DNA of 64,000 nt, taken from assembly GCA_015178975.1 (NCBI GenBank), contig WHVD01000001.1, positions 4,092,001 to 4,156,000 on the forward strand, given 5' to 3'. Of the stretch, positions 36,101 through 64,000 are shown one piece after another. A program made the position numbers and the translations under genes. Source of the DNA: Hysterangium stoloniferum (lineage: Eukaryota > Basidiomycota > Agaricomycetes > Hysterangiales > Hysterangiaceae). The first letter of the stretch is position 1, and each line of letters starts with the position of its first letter. A model generated the notes under the pieces. It did no database searches. It had not been told where the DNA came from and saw only the letters and a program-made list of their open reading frames with translations.

Positions 36101-39100
36101 GTTGACGACAGAGGACGGGTAGATGATCCGGAGAGTTCTCGTATATCGGGCACACTTGCTAGAGTACCACTATCGATCAGAATGGGAGGGAAAAAAGGAG
36201 GGAATGGGAATACTTTGACGTAGGATTGAGAGTGACTCAAGCAGTGCTGGTTGTCTTTTCTTAGACAATCCTACAGCCGCACGTGTTTGAGCCCTGACGA
36301 GAGGGAGAAACTCCACTGTGGAGACTTAAGACAGATCCTTCGACAAGATTTATTGGATCACCTTGTTCTGAAAATTTCATCAGGGCTGATGCTGCGCTTG
36401 ATCGAACGTCGGAGTCAGAGTCCTTCAACAGTGCAACAACGTCGGCAACGGCGTCGGCAATGGTGTCTCGAAATTCGGCTGTGGTAAAATGTTAGCTGGA
36501 TTCCCATCCCATCGTTACACACCGCACTTTGCTCCGAAACATTCCCCAGGGCCGATACCGCGCTTGATCGAACGCTAGAGTGAGAGTCCTTTAACAGTGC
36601 AACAATGTCGGGAGTGACACCCGCAATGTCGGCTCGAAATTTGGCTGTGGTCAGATGTCAGCGGGATTCCCATCTCATTGACACACCGCACCTTGCTCTG
36701 AAACCTTCCCCAGGGCCGATACTGCGCTTGATCGAACGCCAGGGGCTGCGTTTTTCAACAGTGTAATAATGTCAGGAATGACAGCCGCAATGGCGGCTTG
36801 AAAGTCGGCTGTGGTCAAATGTCAGCTGGATTCCCATCCCATTGTCATACACCGCACCTTGCTCTGAAACATTCCCCAGGGCCGATGCTGCGTACAATCG
36901 AACGCCAGAGTCAGAGTCCTTCAACAGTGCAACGATGTCGGGAACGACACCCGCAATGGCGGCTCGAAATTCGTCTGTGGTCAGGTGTCAGCTGGATTTC
37001 CATCCTATTGTCATACATCGCACATTGCTCTGAAACCTTCCCCAGAGTCTGTACTGCGCTTGATCGAACGTCAGAGTCAGAGTCCTTCAAAAGTGCAACA
37101 ATGTTGGGAATGACACCCGCAATGGCGGCTCGAAATTCGGCTGTGGTCAAATGTCAGCTGGATTCCCATCCCATTGTCACACACTGCACCTTGCTCTGAA
37201 ACATTCCCCAGGGCCAATACTGCGCTTGATCGAACATCAGAGTCAGAGTCCTTCAACAGTGCAACAATTTTGGGAATGACACTCGTAATGGCGACTCGAA
37301 ATTCGGCTGTGGTCAAATGTCAGCTGGATTCCCATCCCATTGGCACACCGCACCTTGCTCTGAAACCTTCCCCAGGGCCGATACTGCGCTTGATCGAACG
37401 TCAGAGTCAAAGTCCTTCAACAGTGCAACAATGTCGGGAATGACAGCCGTAATGGCGGTTCGAAATTCGGCTGTGCTCGAATGTCAGCTGGATTCCCATC
37501 CCATTATCACACACCTCACCTTGCTTTGAAACCTTTTCCAGGGCCCTTACTGTGCTTGATCGAACGTCAGAGTTAAAGTCCTTCAACAGTGCAACAATGT
37601 CGGGAATGACACCCGCCATGGCGGCTCGAAATTCGGCTGTGGTCAAATGTCAGCTGGATTCCCATCCCATTGTCACACACCGCACCTTGCTCTGAAACAT
37701 TCCCCAGGGCCAATACTGCGCTTGATAGAACGTCAGAGTCAGAGTCCTTCAATAGTGCAAGAATGTCGGGAATGACACCCGCAATGGGCGCACGAAATTC
37801 GGCTGTGGTCAAATGTCAGCTGGATTCCCATCCCATTTTCACACACTGCACCTTGTTCTGAAACCTTCCCCAGGACCGATACTGCGCTTGATCGAACGGG
37901 CCAGTCAGAGTCCTTCAACAGTGCAACAATGTCGGGAATGACACCCGCAATGGTGGCTCGAAATTCAGCTGAGGCCAAATGTCAGCTGGATTCCCATCCC
38001 ATTGTCACACACCGCACCTTGCTCTGAAACCTTTCCCAGGACCGATACTGCGCTTGATCGAACGTGCCAGTCAGAGTCCTTCAACAGTGTAACAATGTTG
38101 GGAATGGCACCGACCATACCAGTTGGAAATCTAGCTGAACAGCGGTGTATAATATCGTACTCCTCCACTAGGCATTTTCTTACCACATTCCACTAGTAAT
38201 TGTTCCACAGGAACATCTGCTTTTTGAACCATTTTCTTCATCCAGTCTTTTTCTTTTCCTGTTGTGATAATAATTAGGTACGTGTGTTTTGACTCATGTT
38301 ACATGCAGTTCACCTGCTATTAACCCCCTCTCTTCCAACATTTTCCGGCACCCCGCTGGCCAACAATCAGTTTCTTTCCCGGTGCCATGGAAAAAATCCC
38401 TACGAAGATGCCAATATGCTAACGTTAACCGTTCGCAGGTTACATGTAAGCCCTCCTTTTCTGACAGTGCTCCATCAATAATCGCCCCCATTAACGCCTT
38501 TCGCTCGTATGGTGCTGCACCCATATTGGCCACCGTTTCAATTTGTGCTTCTCCCGGTACCTCTAGGTTACCGTCATCCATGTTTACCCAGATACCAATG
38601 TAAACCGCCCATCCCAATGTCTTCACGCAAGGATCTAAATTGTCCAAGCGATGTAATGGTCTCCCAACATGTAGTAGTGTTTTGAAAGGCGTAAGGTACT
38701 CTTTGTTTATGAGTTTGTCTGTTGGCGGCGATAGGACTCGTGACATTGCAAGGAGAGAAACTTCCGCAAGGGCTGGATTACGTATAGTGACGACGCCTGC
38801 GGTGAGGTGAAAGCAGTTCTCCAAAACTTTGCATAGTTTCTCCGTCACGGTTAGTTGGGACAAGGCATTCCGCAACTGTTGAGATTGCTTAGCACCTGCT
38901 ACAGCCCTAAGTGCCTCGTTAAGTGCCTCCTCCGATGTGGGGTTTGCAATTACCCATGCCAGGACATCAGCTTCAAGTTCGGCCCGTGGAGGCTTGCTAT
39001 GCAGTTCGGCAAAGAACCGAGCAAGGCTTTCTAGCCATTCAGAAATTCTGAATGCATACGTCATAGTCGGTGGCGAAGACCCACAGTAGTCTGATGTGGA

Positions 39101-40060
39101 GGAGTCATACTTTGTGCTTGCAGACACGACTGGGAAAAACCGTGACGCTGTTGTCTGAAAGGGACAAGCGGGGGACAACAAGGGAAAAATGGTGCCGAGC
39201 GTATATAGCAAGATTGCAAATATGGTCAAAAAAAGCATAAGAACGCCCAAAGCTACACTGTTATTCCAGGTGAATAAGACGAGACCTGCCGAGAAAAGGA
39301 AGAGAGCTAGTTGAATCAAAAGCGGGATTCCAGTAACAACTGACTCGAGGTGCCATTGCTGTGCTCTCTTAACACGAAGGAGACGTTGGCACGCATCACT
39401 CGAACGACTTCCGGGTGATACAGGAATATACTTCGCCAGCCATTCTCTTGCAAGTACAGCACAAAGAGCACTGAAGAGGGTCAGACAGAGACTAGTGAAC
39501 CACAGATAGTTGACAACAAGGGATGATTTGGAGACTTGAAAAGGCTGAGAGGTAGGTACAGCGAAGTGACTTTGAAGCGCCTGAAGGATTTCCTGAACAG
39601 GATCTACCTGCAAATCCTTCCTACTTTCGATCAGGAACGCGGTAAGAATCGCTCCAAACAAACCGGCCTAAAAAGCTGTGAATCAATTGAATATCTATGA
39701 AGGTAAACGTATTCAACATACAAATATTAGAAGCTCGTCGACACCAACTTGCAATGAGCTGGCAAGTTCCTTGTCCTCTTTTTCGGTTTCCTTCAGATAT
39801 AATGACCATATGGTTGAATCCGATTCAACGTGCTTGCTGTAGAGGTTATCGTCTTCGCTTTCTAAGCCATCATCGCGACTGGATGTTGCCTCGATTGGGC
39901 CGGAGGGAATCTTAGTAGACAAAGGTTGATGGTTGGTCGTTCCTTGTTCCTCTGTGTGCGTGCCTCAGTTTAGAATTAGTGCAAACTTTGATTTAATACC
40001 TGAGACAAACGGAATCTGTGATTCGGCGCAGCTAAGGTCTTGTGCATACTGCGACGGCAT
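33148..40060 (-). CDS. DUF6535 membrane domain - HEAT repeat protein (left copy)
   Basis: Exon 1 starts MPSQYAQDL (40060-40000). Exon 2 (39951-39722) ends LQVGVDELLIF and joins exon 3 (39667-38314) at AGLFGAILTAFLIESRKDLQ, the DUF6535 hallmark. Exon 3 continues with LWFTSLCLTLFSALCAVLAR EWLAKY, a pair of hydrophobic segments (about residues 210-270) and a soluble part ending RKMLEERGLIAG. Exon 4 (38258-38184) encodes KEKDWMKKMVQKADVPVEQ. From 38134 come serial 39-residue HEAT exons (AEFRAAIAGVIPDIVALLKD then SDSDVRSSAVSALGKVSEQ) with phase-1 boundaries, interrupted by ~460 bp at 35827-36362. The final exons read AIIGCNLQHHC, ISAGGKLFVAFAQYG and LSALCHLYLPTPP, with TGA at 33148. Exons 1-4 are fully open; I did not check every HEAT exon. 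The predicted product exceeds 1,500 residues: a membrane-anchored solenoid of unknown function. Confidence 0.75.
33549..35826 (-). repeat. HEAT exon array, left arm, 3' block (about 14 units)
   Basis: Tandem ~166-bp units, each a 117-nt exon plus a ~49-nt intron. In sense orientation the intron begins GTGCGGTGTGTGACAATGGG, has CTGAC about 15 nt before the acceptor and ends TTTGACCACAG. I count 13 introns here. The last unit (VQTKTQVVDLLVKLAAYG) is diverged. Confidence 0.85.
35827..36362 (-). other. Non-HEAT insert splitting the array
   Basis: A ~535-bp segment between HEAT exons, present at the same place in the right arm (55185-55730). In sense orientation both copies keep an open stretch ending LSSTVD(L/V)LHSTD and RHEDIKIIQCVTITCM, which may be a conserved exon. 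It also contains AAAGCGCG and CTCCACAGTGGA-like blocks. It could be an old transposon remnant, a large intron or the junction of two genes. Confidence 0.5.
36363..38134 (-). repeat. HEAT exon array, left arm, 5' block (about 11 units)
   Basis: Ten introns and eleven HEAT exons of the same 166-bp unit. The corresponding block of the right arm has only two units (54902-55184), so about nine units were gained here or lost there. Confidence 0.85.
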
Positions 40061-46021: not shown

Positions 46022-46048
46022 GTCAATGTTAAAAGTGTAGATAATGAA

Positions 46049-46120
46049 TGGCCAGACTGGGGATTGAACCCAGGGCTTCTGCATATATAGCAGGGGTGTT
46101 AACCATTACACCACCTGACC
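46049..46120 (-). ncRNA. tRNA-like Pol III unit in TRIM LTR (copy 1)
   Basis: 72 nt folding as a cloverleaf: acceptor GGTCAGG with CTGGCC (two G-U pairs) plus A, D-stem GTG/CAC, T-stem CTGGG/CCCAG with loop TTCAATC. A box TGGTGTAATGG (46103-46113) and B box GGTTCAATCCC (46060-46070) fit Pol III promoters. The anticodon arm is CTGC/GCAG closing loop TATATAT; position 33 is A instead of the universal U, so decoding is unlikely. A TTTT Pol III stop (46031-46034) lies just downstream, still within the LTR. Confidence 0.75.
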
Positions 46121-46331
46121 CTGGGAAGCACTGCTAGCATTACTCAAACTAACACACTCCCTTAATGCTAGCACTCAACTATACTATAAGCAGATATAGG
46201 TCCTCTCTGGCTCTTTTGTCCAGACTTGTCCACTATACCACACACAAATATAGCTGTTCACTCTACACACAGGAACCATGCCCTATAGCACACAGCGGGG
46301 CCCATAACCTGTTAAAAGTGTAGATAATGAA

Positions 46332-46403
46332 TGGCCAGACTGGGGATTGAACCCAGGGCTTCTGCATATATAGCAGGGGTGTTAACCATTACACCACCTG
46401 ACC
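46332..46403 (-). ncRNA. tRNA-like Pol III unit in TRIM LTR (copy 2)
   Basis: Identical to copy 1, at the same position in the second LTR, with the same A box, B box and TTTT. Confidence 0.75.
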
Positions 46404-46442
46404 CTGGGAAGCACTGCTAGCATTACTCAAACTAACAGTCAA

Positions 46443-47111
46443 TGCAGTGGTTAAGGATGTTATTACTGGCCCAAGAGTAAGTATTCAGGCCAGGTAGCAA
46501 AGAGAGACTGATTTATATCTTTCAGATTCAATAAATTGAATATATATATATATAAATGTACATAAATAATTAATCCCATTTAAACATATTAAATTAGTTC
46601 CCCAAGATAGCTTCTGGAAAAGGTTTGCCATGCCCAGTCATGAACCAGTCTATCTCGATGTAAGCAATCTGTGCCATACCTAGCTGCAATATCCCCAGTT
46701 TATTAAATGTTTTGTTACATACTTTGATTACATTGGCTCAAATATAAGTGAAGTGACAAAGATTTTATGGCGGTAGCAAGCTCCTCAGAGAGCAAGTGGT
46801 GTTTCATAATGTACAGATTGCTAAGGCGCAGTGTACATTCCGTGACCCGATCATCGCCCACTATTTGTAGACTAAGTGAAGTGTATGCGGTGAACCAAGG
46901 CGTCCGGAGACAGGACGAAGATAATTGCCTTCTCATCAGTGGTGGAGTTTAGATAGTAGTTGGCCGATATATCCCACAAGAAATCAGGAATGGCATGCGC
47001 GAGGATTTTAATCACATGTCAACAGGAAATTTGTTGATGGATGTATAGTCTGCCTTGGCTTTGGAACATGTGACTGGCATTTTTCATCTTTGAGGTTATA
47101 AGAGAAGTGGG
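46443..47111. other. AT-rich flank, no recognised gene
   Basis: A short (AT)n tract near 46538. Frames of 61-73 codons around 46715-46950 on both strands are unsupported. Confidence 0.3.
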
Positions 47112-52110: not shown

Positions 52111-54901
52111 TATCCTTGGCGGTGCTGTTCCTAGTCCGTATATGCTCGTGTCGATAGGTAAAGTGCGTTATGGACAAAATTGAGTAAACCCTAAACTCTC
52201 TGTTGTTTGATTTGTTACAAAAAACTCTATACATTATTAATCCCCACGCCTTCTTTGAATAAACCTGGAGGTATGAGTCTAAGATCTGAATAGAGATGCT
52301 GCCACACTAAATGTTTTCTACAAAAACTGTCAAGTTTTCCACAAAACGATCTACAAAATCATGTACAGTCTTCTACAAAAAGTACAGCCTAAAGGGTTAC
52401 CAGCAAGGGACGTTGGTAGCGGGAGAAATAGAAAAGGAAAATAGATGGCAAATAAGTGGTTAACGTGCGCCACTTGTGATTTTAAGTATCTAATGTGTGT
52501 TTCTTGGGTTTTCGGGCGCTTATTGATAATGACAAGTGCCGCACGATCCCTAGCTTCCCGGGAGTAGTTCGGCACTTAATGTCCAGCCGAGCGTAAGGAG
52601 AACTCTCATGCCTTCGTTCTCTACGACTACTCTGTCGATCCACAGTCTTTCAAATTTCGCTCACTGACATCTCATCATTCTTTTTATTTAATTATTTTAC
52701 CCACCCACCCTCCCTCACCTTGACGACAGTGGTAATATAGCAGTCATCAGTCTTAGAGTTGACCAAAATAAACCAAAATAGCGGAACAGCAAAGTGAGAG
52801 TTGTAAATGCATAAGAAAACCCGCCCTCCCGAGCGGCGAGTGTTCCCACGCATACGCGGAGAGCTGACACTCTCCCTCTACCCAACCATACCGCTCCTCA
52901 CACAGAGATTCCGCATTAGGCGAAGCTGGACATTTATATCGACCGCTGTGAAGTCCAACTGACTCAACATGTCCTCCCAGTATGCACAAGATCTTAGCTG
53001 CGCCGAATCACAGATACCGTTTGTCTCAGGTATTAAACCAAAGTTTACACTTATTCTAAACTGAGGCACGCAAGCAGAGGAAAAAGGAACGACCAACCGT
53101 GAACCTTCGTCTACCAATGTTCCCTCAAGCGAAACCGAGGCGGCATCCAGTAACGATAATGGCTTGGAAAGCGAGGACGATAACCCCTATAGCAAGCACG
53201 TTGAATCGGATTCAACCATATGGTCATTATATCTAAAGGAAACGGAAAAAGATGACAAAGAACTTGCCAACTCATTGCAAGTTGGTGTCGACGAGCTTCT
53301 CATATTTGTATGCTGAATACGTTCTCCTTCATAGATATTCAATTAATTCACAGCTTTTCAGGCGGGTTTGTTCGGAGCGATTCTTACCGCGTTCCTGATC
53401 GAAAGTAGGAAGGATTTGCAGGTAGATCCTGTTCAGGAAATCCTTCAGGCGCTTCAAAGTCACTTCGCTGTACCTACCTCTCAGCCTTTTCAAGTCTCCA
53501 AATCCTCCCTTGTTGTCAACTGTCTGTGGTTCACTAGTCTCGCTCTGACCCTCTTCAGTGCTCTTTGTGCTGTACTTGCAAGAGAATGGCTGGCGAAGTA
53601 TATTCCTGTATCCCCCGGAAGTCGTTCGAGTGATGCGTGCCAACGTCTCCTTCGTGTTAAGAGAGCACAGCAATGGCACCTCGAGTCAGTTGTTACTGGA
53701 ATCCCGCTTTTGATTCAACTAGCTCTCTTCCTTTTCTCGGCAGGTCTCGTCTTATTCACCTGGAATAATAGTGTAGCTTTGGGGGTTCTTATGCTTTTTT
53801 TGATAGTATTTGCAATCTTGCTATATGCACTCGGCACCGTTTTTCCCTTGTTGTCCCCCACTTGTCCCTTTCAGACAACAGCGTCACGGTTTTTCCCGGT
53901 TGTGTCTGCAAGCGCAAAGTATGACTCGTCCACATCAGACTACTGTGGGTCTTCGCCACCGACAAGGACGTATGCATTCAGAATTTCTGAATGGCTACAA
54001 CGCCTTCCTCGGTTCTTCGCCGAAATGCATGGCAAACCTCCACGGGCTGAACTTGAAGCTGATGTCCTGGCATGGGTGATTGCAAACTCCACATCGGAGG
54101 AGGCAGTTAACGAGGCACTTAGGGCTGTAGCAGGTGCTAAACAATGTCAACAGTTGCGGGTTGCATTGTGTCAACTAGCCGTCGCGGAGAAATTATGTAA
54201 AGTTCTGGAGAACTGCTTTCATCTCACCGCAGGCGTCGTCACTATACGCGATGCAGCGCTTGCGGAGGTTTCTCTCCTTGCAATGTCACGAGCCCTATCG
54301 CCGTTAACAGACAAACTCATGAACAAAGAGTACCTTACGCCCTTCAAAAGACTCCTACATGTTGGGAGACCATTACATCGGTTGGACAATTTAGATCCTT
54401 GCGTAAAGACATTGGCGTGGGCGGTGCATCTTGGTATTTGGGTAAACATAGATAACGGTAACCTAGAGGTGCCGACAGACCCACACATTGAAACGATGGC
54501 CACTATGGGGGCAGCACCATACGAACGAAGGACGTTAATGGTGGGGACTATTGATGGAGCACTGTCAGGAAAGGAGGGCTTACATGTAACCTGCGAACGG
54601 TTAATGTTAGCATATTGGCATCTTCGTAGGGATTTTTTCCATGGCATCGGTAAAGAAACTAATTGTTGGGCAGCGGGTTGCCGGAAAATGCTGGAAGAGA
54701 GGGGGTTAATAGCAGGTTAACTGTGTATAACATGAGTCAAAAAACACGTACCTAATTATTATCACAACAGGAAAAGAAAAAGAGTGGATGAAGAAAAAAG
54801 GGTTAAAAAAGCAGATGGTCCTGTGGAACGATTACTAGTGGAATGTGGTAAGAAAATGCCAAGTGGAAGAGGAGTACAATATGATATACACCGGTGTTCA
54901 G

Positions 54902-62716: not shown

Positions 62717-64000
62717 AACTCGTCTCTGACTTTCTTGGAAATTTAGTGTTCCGAGCTCTGATAGATTCCAGCTCCACACACTGTTTTGTAGACACCACCT
62801 TTGCCATGAAACATAATCTGAAACTCCATTCTGTTCCCACAATCTCCTTGCGTTTGTTTGACGGCACTAGCAATACAGCAATTACCCAAGCCTGTGACAT
62901 GTCTATCCAGTTCCCTTGTGGAACATCCCAGACGGTTACCTTTTTTGTAACACAGTTGGACTCTAGCTGTTCGGTAGTTCTTGGATACAACTGGCTCACC
63001 TGATATAATCTGTTGATTGACTGGGTATTGGGCAGTATTAATTTCTGAATTCCTGACACTTCAGTTCCTCCTGCAGCGTCTTTTCTGGCCAATGCCTTTT
63101 CGGCATCAATGGCATCTCTGGCTTCTACTGAAACCTCTGAGCCTCCGAAAATCTCTCTCATCAACGCTTCGGCATTTGTTAGGGTGAGTAAACTGGATGG
63201 TTCACAGTGTTTTTTGATCAGCTTAAAAGTTGATGAAGCATCTGGACATTTTGCAACTCCAGAATTATCCGAGCTAAAAGCCGACCTGGAAGGAGTTCCC
63301 GAAAAATACCATGATTTCACGGACATTTTCAGTAAGCAAAAAGCTGACAGGCTTGCACCACATAGGCCCTACGACTTAAAAATCGATATAGAGCCCAGTT
63401 CAAACCCTCCATTAGGACCTATTTACCCATTATCCCAATCAGAACTTTCGTCCATTCGGGAGTTCCTGGATGAACATCTGTCGATAGGTTTTATCCATCC
63501 CTCAAAGTCTCCATACGGAGCACCCGTCCTTTTCGTCAGAAAGAAGGATGGCTCCCTTCGACTCTGTGTCGATTTCAGAGGATTAAATTCCATCACATGG
63601 AAAGATAAGTATCCACTTCCACTTGTTACCGATTTACTCGATGCCCCACGGAAAGCTCGAATCTACACCAAAATAGACCTCAAACACGCTTATCATTTGG
63701 TTCGAATTGCCGAGGGCAATGAATGGAAAACTGCTTTTCGGACTCGCTATGGATCCTTTGAATGGTTGGTTATGCCATTCGGTCTTACCAATGCCCCTTC
63801 CGCTTTTCAATGTTTTGTTAATGATATATTTTCCAACATGCTTGACGTATGTTTTATAGTCTATTTGGATGACATTTTGGTATTTTCTGAGGATCCCGCT
63901 CTTCACAATGAACAGGTCCATGAAGCCTTCTAAAGACTCCGTAAAAATGGTCTTTTTGCCAACGGTAAAAAATGTTACTTTGACATGGATTCTATTGAAT
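62610..64000 (+). pseudogene. Ty3/gypsy pol: protease and reverse transcriptase (runs off window)
   Basis: Aspartic protease: FRALIDSSSTHCFVD (62751-62795; the usual D-S/T-G is D-S-S here) and SVVLGYNWL. Then [20 protein letters not shown] and the reverse transcriptase: [80 protein letters not shown] and the active-site YLDD (63862-63873). Stops TGA at 63001 and 63046 and TAA at 63931 interrupt it, and the frame change from gag near 62610 may be a deletion. RNase H and integrase would lie beyond 64000. Confidence 0.9.

Follow-up and report, generated by a model that had tools for sequence, protein, structure and literature searches.

The closest described counterparts of the element analyzed here are the Helenus elements, or TRIMp3, which are TRIMs with tRNA-derived sequence in their LTRs (Kojima, 2024; PMC10886601). 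The accessible parts of that paper, the sole one on Helenus or TRIMp3 that we found in the open-access literature, include Agaricomycete families and name Agaricus, Coprinopsis and Amylostereum as hosts besides rusts. In most of the fungal Helenus families described there, the PBS is complementary to a tRNA anticodon loop, often that of iMet. Pol III transcription is unproven for Helenus itself according to the same parts; Cassandra, a plant TRIM with 5S sequence in its LTRs, is reported there to be transcribed from that sequence. An LTR with a tRNA-type Pol III promoter in a fungal TRIM, which the preliminary description of this DNA had put forward as a fungal counterpart of Cassandra, is not a new idea, and is to be found as Helenus in those parts of Kojima (2024; PMC10886601).

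In the current study, we characterized a 411-bp element of Hysterangium stoloniferum that is real, young and multicopy and that is a new family of this published kind (Table 1). Like Helenus as presented in the accessible text (PMC10886601), it is a TRIM of less than 1000 bp without coding capacity (its longest ORF has 52 codons), and its two LTRs each include a tRNA-derived stretch with an A box and a B box. It also has, like Helenus, a PBS beside the 5′ LTR on the iMet anticodon arm (a host tRNA-Met being taken here as the initiator), a PPT before the 3′ LTR (here AAGGGAGTG, recognized by sequence only) and, like fungal Helenus, 5-bp target duplications, here at 23 of 30 loci and on the outer flanks of two arrays; several families per genome, solo LTRs and a suspected Copia partner complete the likeness. 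The assignment to Helenus rests on these shared features rather than on sequence kinship with the published consensus sequences, and the primer-site mosaics that the element forms with longer ones do not feature in the parts of the Helenus description available (PMC10886601). With Cassandra, the element shares a Pol III-type gene sequence in the LTR and the occurrence of tandem arrays, but the sequence is tRNA and not 5S rRNA (Rfam gives tRNA only), and the primer site of Cassandra is TGGTATCAGAGC in the accessible part of its description (PMC7215508), whereas the internal part here begins with GGTTATGGGCCCCGC. SMART and other plant TRIMs are likewise very short and without coding capacity, and tandem arrays are known among plant TRIMs (PMC4717578; PMC7215508, both in part), but a small-RNA gene is absent from their LTRs, except in Cassandra, as far as the accessible text extends (PMC4717578). 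For a class of TRIMs that entered the literature in 2024, the element provides an example that is young and present in many copies.

Structure and orientation of the 411-bp element

Each of the two identical LTRs contains a tRNA-Ile(TAT)-like gene of 72 nt on the minus strand, as called by ARAGORN, and each matches the Rfam tRNA family RF00005 with 46.8 bits (gathering score 29; E 7.4e-07). No other RF00005 match exceeds the gathering score in the window, that is, the whole 64,000-nt stretch of DNA that was analyzed, and ARAGORN makes no tRNA call in the window besides these two; tRNA counts are thus inflated by such elements. The predicted RNA fold of the 72-nt stretch is a cloverleaf (z -2.18), and 7 of 200 shuffles fold as well. 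Both LTRs carry an A box (TGGTGTAATGG), a B box (GGTTCAATCCC) and a TTTT run. The minus strand is the sense strand, on which the purine tract AAGGGAGTG, directly before the 3′ LTR, and the primer site GGTTATGGGCCCCGC, directly after the 5′ LTR, agree. Judged from its sequence, the LTR would divide into a U3 of 34 nt, an R of about 90 nt and a U5 of 4 nt. Our results bear out the preliminary description in its TRIM structure (identical 128-bp LTRs and GTCAA duplications), in the tRNA-like sequence as the core of the LTR with its boxes and downstream TTTT, and in its orientation.

Table 1. Positions in the window of the features of the 411-bp element; 5′ and 3′ refer to the sense strand.
Feature	Position	Strand	Basis
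Whole TRIM, 411 bp, TG...CA ends	46027..46437	-	repeats, ends, genome copies
Target-site duplication GTCAA, left	46022..46026		sequence
Target-site duplication GTCAA, right	46438..46442		sequence
5′ LTR, 128 bp	46310..46437	-	direct repeat
tRNA-like sequence, 5′ LTR	46332..46403	-	ARAGORN, Rfam, predicted fold
A box, 5′ LTR	46386..46396	-	sequence
B box, 5′ LTR	46343..46353	-	sequence
TTTT near 5′ LTR end	46314..46317	-	sequence
Primer-binding site, 15 nt	46295..46309	-	complement of host tRNA-Met anticodon arm
Internal region, 155 bp, no ORF above 52 codons	46155..46309	-	between repeats
Polypurine-like tract AAGGGAGTG	46155..46163	-	sequence only
3′ LTR, 128 bp, identical to 5′ LTR	46027..46154	-	direct repeat
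tRNA-like sequence, 3′ LTR	46049..46120	-	ARAGORN, Rfam
A box, 3′ LTR	46103..46113	-	sequence
B box, 3′ LTR	46060..46070	-	sequence
TTTT near 3′ LTR end, proposed end of long RNA	46031..46034	-	sequence

Elsewhere in the window, a TA-dinucleotide palindromic run lies about 100 bp to the right of the element (46537-46562). Two inverted frames, 38294-39667 (-) and 53347-54720 (+), are identical at 403 of 451 aligned residues, the first of them containing DUF6535, a domain suggestive of an agaricomycete and named in work on Flammulina, and a reverse transcriptase fragment (Pfam RVT_1; 63049-63933, +) marks another retroelement.

Genome copies and a second tRNA-bearing family

In the host genome (111 Mb, 554 contigs), 43 of the 45 matches listed span all 411 bases, a count that is a lower bound since 40 of 503 candidates were scored. 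At least 12 of the listed matches are identical to the 411 bp throughout, including the window copy and two overlapping units of one array. Exact 5-bp duplications flank 23 of the 30 loci fetched, with 22 distinct sequences, while flanks compared in shifted registers matched in 3 of 3000 comparisons. Of the other seven loci, L001 with L002 and L015 with L018 each make up one three-LTR array in two overlapping halves, with matching outer flanks (GATTC and TCGTG), and L011, L022 and L024 have flanks without a match as cut. The LTR pair is identical in 18 of the 23 copies with duplications, and 21 of the 23 are exactly 411 bp long, with a mean difference of 2.1 positions. The very recent mobility claimed in the preliminary description is upheld by these identical copies and LTR pairs, and the search that it had proposed for copies with differing duplications yielded neither a single-copy sequence nor copies without conserved ends. 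A 30-mer from the LTR core occurs 445 times as opposed to 86 for one from the internal core (up to 3 mismatches; reversed controls 0), indicating many solo or broken LTRs. On contig C520 (G000:C520:241319-241788), three A internal cores lie 220 bp apart, and the LTR piece read there (L111) is without most of the tRNA-like part, giving an array whose LTR has wholly or partly lost its boxes.

The occurrence of a tRNA-like gene twice, 283 bp apart, might also suggest something other than a retrotransposon, namely a local tRNA-gene duplication or two adjacent SINEs. Unlike such a pair, the locus has an LTR structure with defined ends and 5-bp duplications, copies of the 411-bp unit at many sites agree in their ends and differ in their duplications, and a primer site and a purine tract stand at the ends of the internal part. 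Given the copies, the conserved ends and the duplications, we regard this origin as ruled out for practical purposes.

A pattern running from the B box to the primer site matched 135 sites (control 0), and among the matches listed two kinds recur: the 411-bp element, hereafter family A, and a family B, in which tRNA-bearing LTRs of 251 bp enclose 66 or 67 bp of internal sequence. In a global alignment of LTR-A and LTR-B, the matches fall in the tRNA-like part and at the 3′ end, and both boxes are present in LTR-B though it otherwise differs from LTR-A. ARAGORN calls no tRNA in LTR-B, and the predicted fold of its tRNA-like piece has no cloverleaf (z -0.14). A functional tRNA is unsupported as an explanation, because ARAGORN calls Ile(TAT) in LTR-A and nothing in LTR-B, which makes a promoter role the likelier one.

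Proposed transcription and cycle

We assign a probability of roughly 80% to the reading that the element is a non-autonomous Helenus-type TRIM (TRIMp3) that moves by the cycle proposed here. From the boxes, the cloverleaf and analogy, we infer that it is transcribed by Pol III. Some transcripts would stop at the weak TTTT that ends the 5′ LTR, giving short tRNA-like RNAs, and others would continue across the 155-bp internal part as far as the TTTT of the 3′ LTR, yielding an RNA of about 373 nt with the R region of about 90 nt at either end. Initiator tRNA-Met, which pairs by sequence with the 15-nt site, may then serve as primer with its anticodon arm, and the particle, reverse transcriptase and integrase would be provided in trans by Copia elements of the same genome that have the same primer site and similar LTR ends. 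As the sequences show, 5-bp target duplications result from integration, a good number of the copies are of recent date, there are three-LTR arrays, and TRIM sequence also stands fused to longer elements at the primer site common to both. Since the same TTTT is present in the 5′ LTR, the long RNA needs read-through, and as the downstream T runs of the two tRNA-Met genes read are T4 and T6, the T4 of the LTR is a plausible, weak terminator.

Variation among copies was analyzed in 17 distinct LTR-A sequences out of 66 unique copies. Variable columns number 0 of 11 in the A box and 3 of 11 in the B box, and box conservation relative to the remaining LTR is not significant (P 0.33). Among the cloverleaf pairs, 11 cells are changed, of which 10 are still paired and 1 is broken; the ten kept pairs are all carried by three divergent rows, and none changes both sides. 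The absence of other TTTT runs between the terminator and the 3′ tRNA is not significant in either family (P 0.74 for A, 0.61 for B) and so lends no support to selection against internal terminators. The lack of significant box conservation would accord with transcription of the TRIM by Pol II, the tRNA-like sequence being a passenger without promoter role, such as an old SINE insertion. Yet the tRNA-like part occupies 72 of the 128 bp of the LTR, where 34 bp remain upstream of it, both boxes persist in the otherwise different LTR-B, and Cassandra offers the precedent of reported transcription from an LTR 5S sequence (PMC10886601, in its accessible parts). Taken together, these points make the Pol II explanation improbable to us, and we favor a Pol III-type promoter within the LTR.

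Primer site, Copia elements and mosaics

For the 15-nt primer site, the exact complement lies in a tRNA-Met(CAT) gene of the host (L098, called by ARAGORN), within the anticodon arm; we take this gene to be the initiator. The word CAGGTTATGGGCC, comprising the LTR end and the primer site, occurs 1000 times in the genome (reversed control 0). At 30 loci drawn from these matches, many downstream frames resemble Copia Gag/protease by eye, and the one such frame tested (L035) is a Copia-type Gag (PF14223, E 2.3e-27). With respect to Copia mobilization, what was observed is this shared primer site and the mosaics with Copia families. As to the autonomous partner sharing LTR ends that the preliminary description had envisaged, no autonomous element with the LTR body of family A was found; the longer elements seen have just the LTR ends and the primer site in common with it. 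Family D, considered as autonomous partner of A, was rejected, having no Copia frame in about 1.5 kb past the primer site (L045 and L051) or in an 801-bp piece further on.

Another family, Copia-C (L095), has the same primer site as the TRIMs and its own 349-bp LTR-C, in which ARAGORN calls no tRNA. It had been a candidate owner of the tRNA-bearing LTR, as LTR-B precedes its internal part, but was set aside when LTR-C was found. The dissimilarity of LTR-B and LTR-C agrees with the statement, in the accessible parts of Kojima (2024; PMC10886601), that TRIMp3 and its partner need not share LTRs. At least 11 Copia-C matches of at least 98% have stop-free frames of at least 1381 codons (150 scored of 1228 candidates). 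At L088, a family B TRIM with a CTGAA duplication is inserted in a copy of LTR-C.

On the evidence of their sequences, families A and B form mosaics with longer elements, among which two families are Copia-type, joined at the shared LTR-end/primer-site boundary. Copia-C has 66 5′ junctions, 54 of them on contigs reached by the listed B-box-to-primer-site matches, and LTR-B precedes Copia-C at six of those 54. On contig C14, it stands before a Copia-C internal part with an unbroken frame of 1386 codons containing Copia Gag, Pol_BBD, SH3_retrovirus and RVT_2 domains (E 1.1e-66 for the last) and an integrase core match just below the curated cut-off (32.2 vs. 32.6 bits); this mosaic has no target duplication. 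On C2, LTR-B is followed by a Copia-C with a gag-part deletion, then by LTR-C, the B internal part and another LTR-B, with TTTTT, a low-complexity sequence, at both outer sides. An alignment of the outer LTR-B pair of C2 gives 249 matches to 1 mismatch and 1 gap; both LTRs carry a variant that 2 of the 21 unique LTR-B copies have, and the left LTR is itself one of those 2. Two mosaics lie on C35. At 906k, where reading covered both ends and the initial 1.5 kb, LTR-B, Copia-C and LTR-C follow one another with a 1385-codon frame between the ends, and AGAGA at both sides is weak as a duplication since the stretch is AGAGA-rich. At 1081k, LTR-C, B internal part, LTR-B, Copia-C with the same deletion as on C2, and LTR-C are found without a duplication, and the outer LTR-C copies differ by 8 mismatches and a 30-bp gap. 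The mosaics on C256 and C259 were read on the 5′ side only, where the B internal part precedes LTR-B at C259; the 3′ pieces fetched contained no known LTR.

In family A, LTR-A is joined on C24 (L076) and C58 (L086) to internal parts of the related families D and D′, which showed no Copia frame where read, and the arrangement on C24 is inverted. The sequence after LTR-A matches the Copia internal part of L035 on C135 (98% over 61 bases) and the internal part of L039 on C533 (82% over 61 bases). From the pattern in family B, the LTR of the same foreign family was expected before the A internal part, and both pieces fetched matched (L035, 96% over 74 bases; L039, 84% over 57 bases). After the join on C135, a 308-codon stop-free frame is 94% like the Gag of L035, whose family, Copia-E, is known here from the Gag side; the family of L039 would be at most a candidate Copia. 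The 8 pieces read upstream of the A internal part comprise 1 with a foreign LTR, 3 with LTR-A, 1 with an LTR-A deleted through the tRNA-like part and 3 unassigned or without an LTR, and the 3 downstream of LTR-A comprise 2 foreign internal parts and 1 unassigned, proportions that do not stand for genome rates because the sites were picked for irregular-looking positions. At L105 (C140) and L108 (C527), the sequence before the A internal part resembles the flank of the TRIM at L011 (C55) and not an LTR, and the joining point at L105 falls on a short sequence that nearly matches the LTR-end/primer-site word.

Two processes could have given rise to the mosaics. One is ordinary recombination of DNA, in which chromosomal copies cross over at the short LTR-end/primer-site sequence that they share; this route is silent on particles, and in our estimate it has an even chance of being the explanation. 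It would account for the missing duplication on C14, for the inverted arrangement on C24 and for C35:1081k with its differing outer LTR-C copies, and C140, where a short near-match joins the A internal part to preceding non-LTR sequence, likewise speaks, by its sequence, for plain short-homology joining. It fits less well with C2, where TTTTT on both sides, albeit low-complexity, accompanies near-identical outer LTR-B copies with a rare variant in common, and with the AGAGA flanks of C35:906k, weak as these are. Sabot and Schulman named a flanking 5-bp duplication and matching outer LTRs as criteria for template switching (2007; PMC1950507), by which, in sequence terms, C2 fits template switching and C35:1081k recombination. 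Like the Triticeae template-switch insertions (PMC1950507), C2 has three LTRs, two internal parts, a duplication and matching outer LTRs; unlike the Triticeae case, in which two similar elements were involved, what is joined here at the primer site is a Copia and a TRIM whose LTR is unlike that of the Copia. The order LTR-B, Copia-C, LTR-C would follow directly if plus-strand strong-stop DNA passed from TRIM to Copia at the primer site that they share. We tentatively suggest, with less than even confidence, that a virus-like particle shared by TRIMs and Copias left the mosaics as its fossils, the second strand transfer sometimes crossing from TRIM cDNA to Copia cDNA; it would do so at the primer site because both kinds of element use the same initiator-tRNA anticodon-arm site. 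If this is true, the primer site would be both the ticket of Pol III-type TRIMs into Copia particles and a crossover point, and tRNA-bearing LTRs would have been placed before intact Copias (LTR-B before the 1386-codon frame on C14 and the 1385-codon frame on C35), from which Copias with LTRs of the Pol III type might arise.

We found no TRIM-Copia mosaic of this kind among the titles and abstract openings seen in open-access work on chimeric or template-switch LTR elements. For the machinery behind movement of the TRIM, the mosaics offer the best leads; they go beyond the parts of the Helenus description covered (PMC10886601) and are the part worth following. By singling out certain Copia families and the primer site in common, they make testable how an element with LTRs of the Pol III type acquires the proteins needed for its movement. 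Two Copia-C copies, L065 and L081, have the same gag-part deletion, at internal positions of about 278 to 893, and possibly represent a non-autonomous Copia-C subfamily that is found in both three-LTR mosaics.
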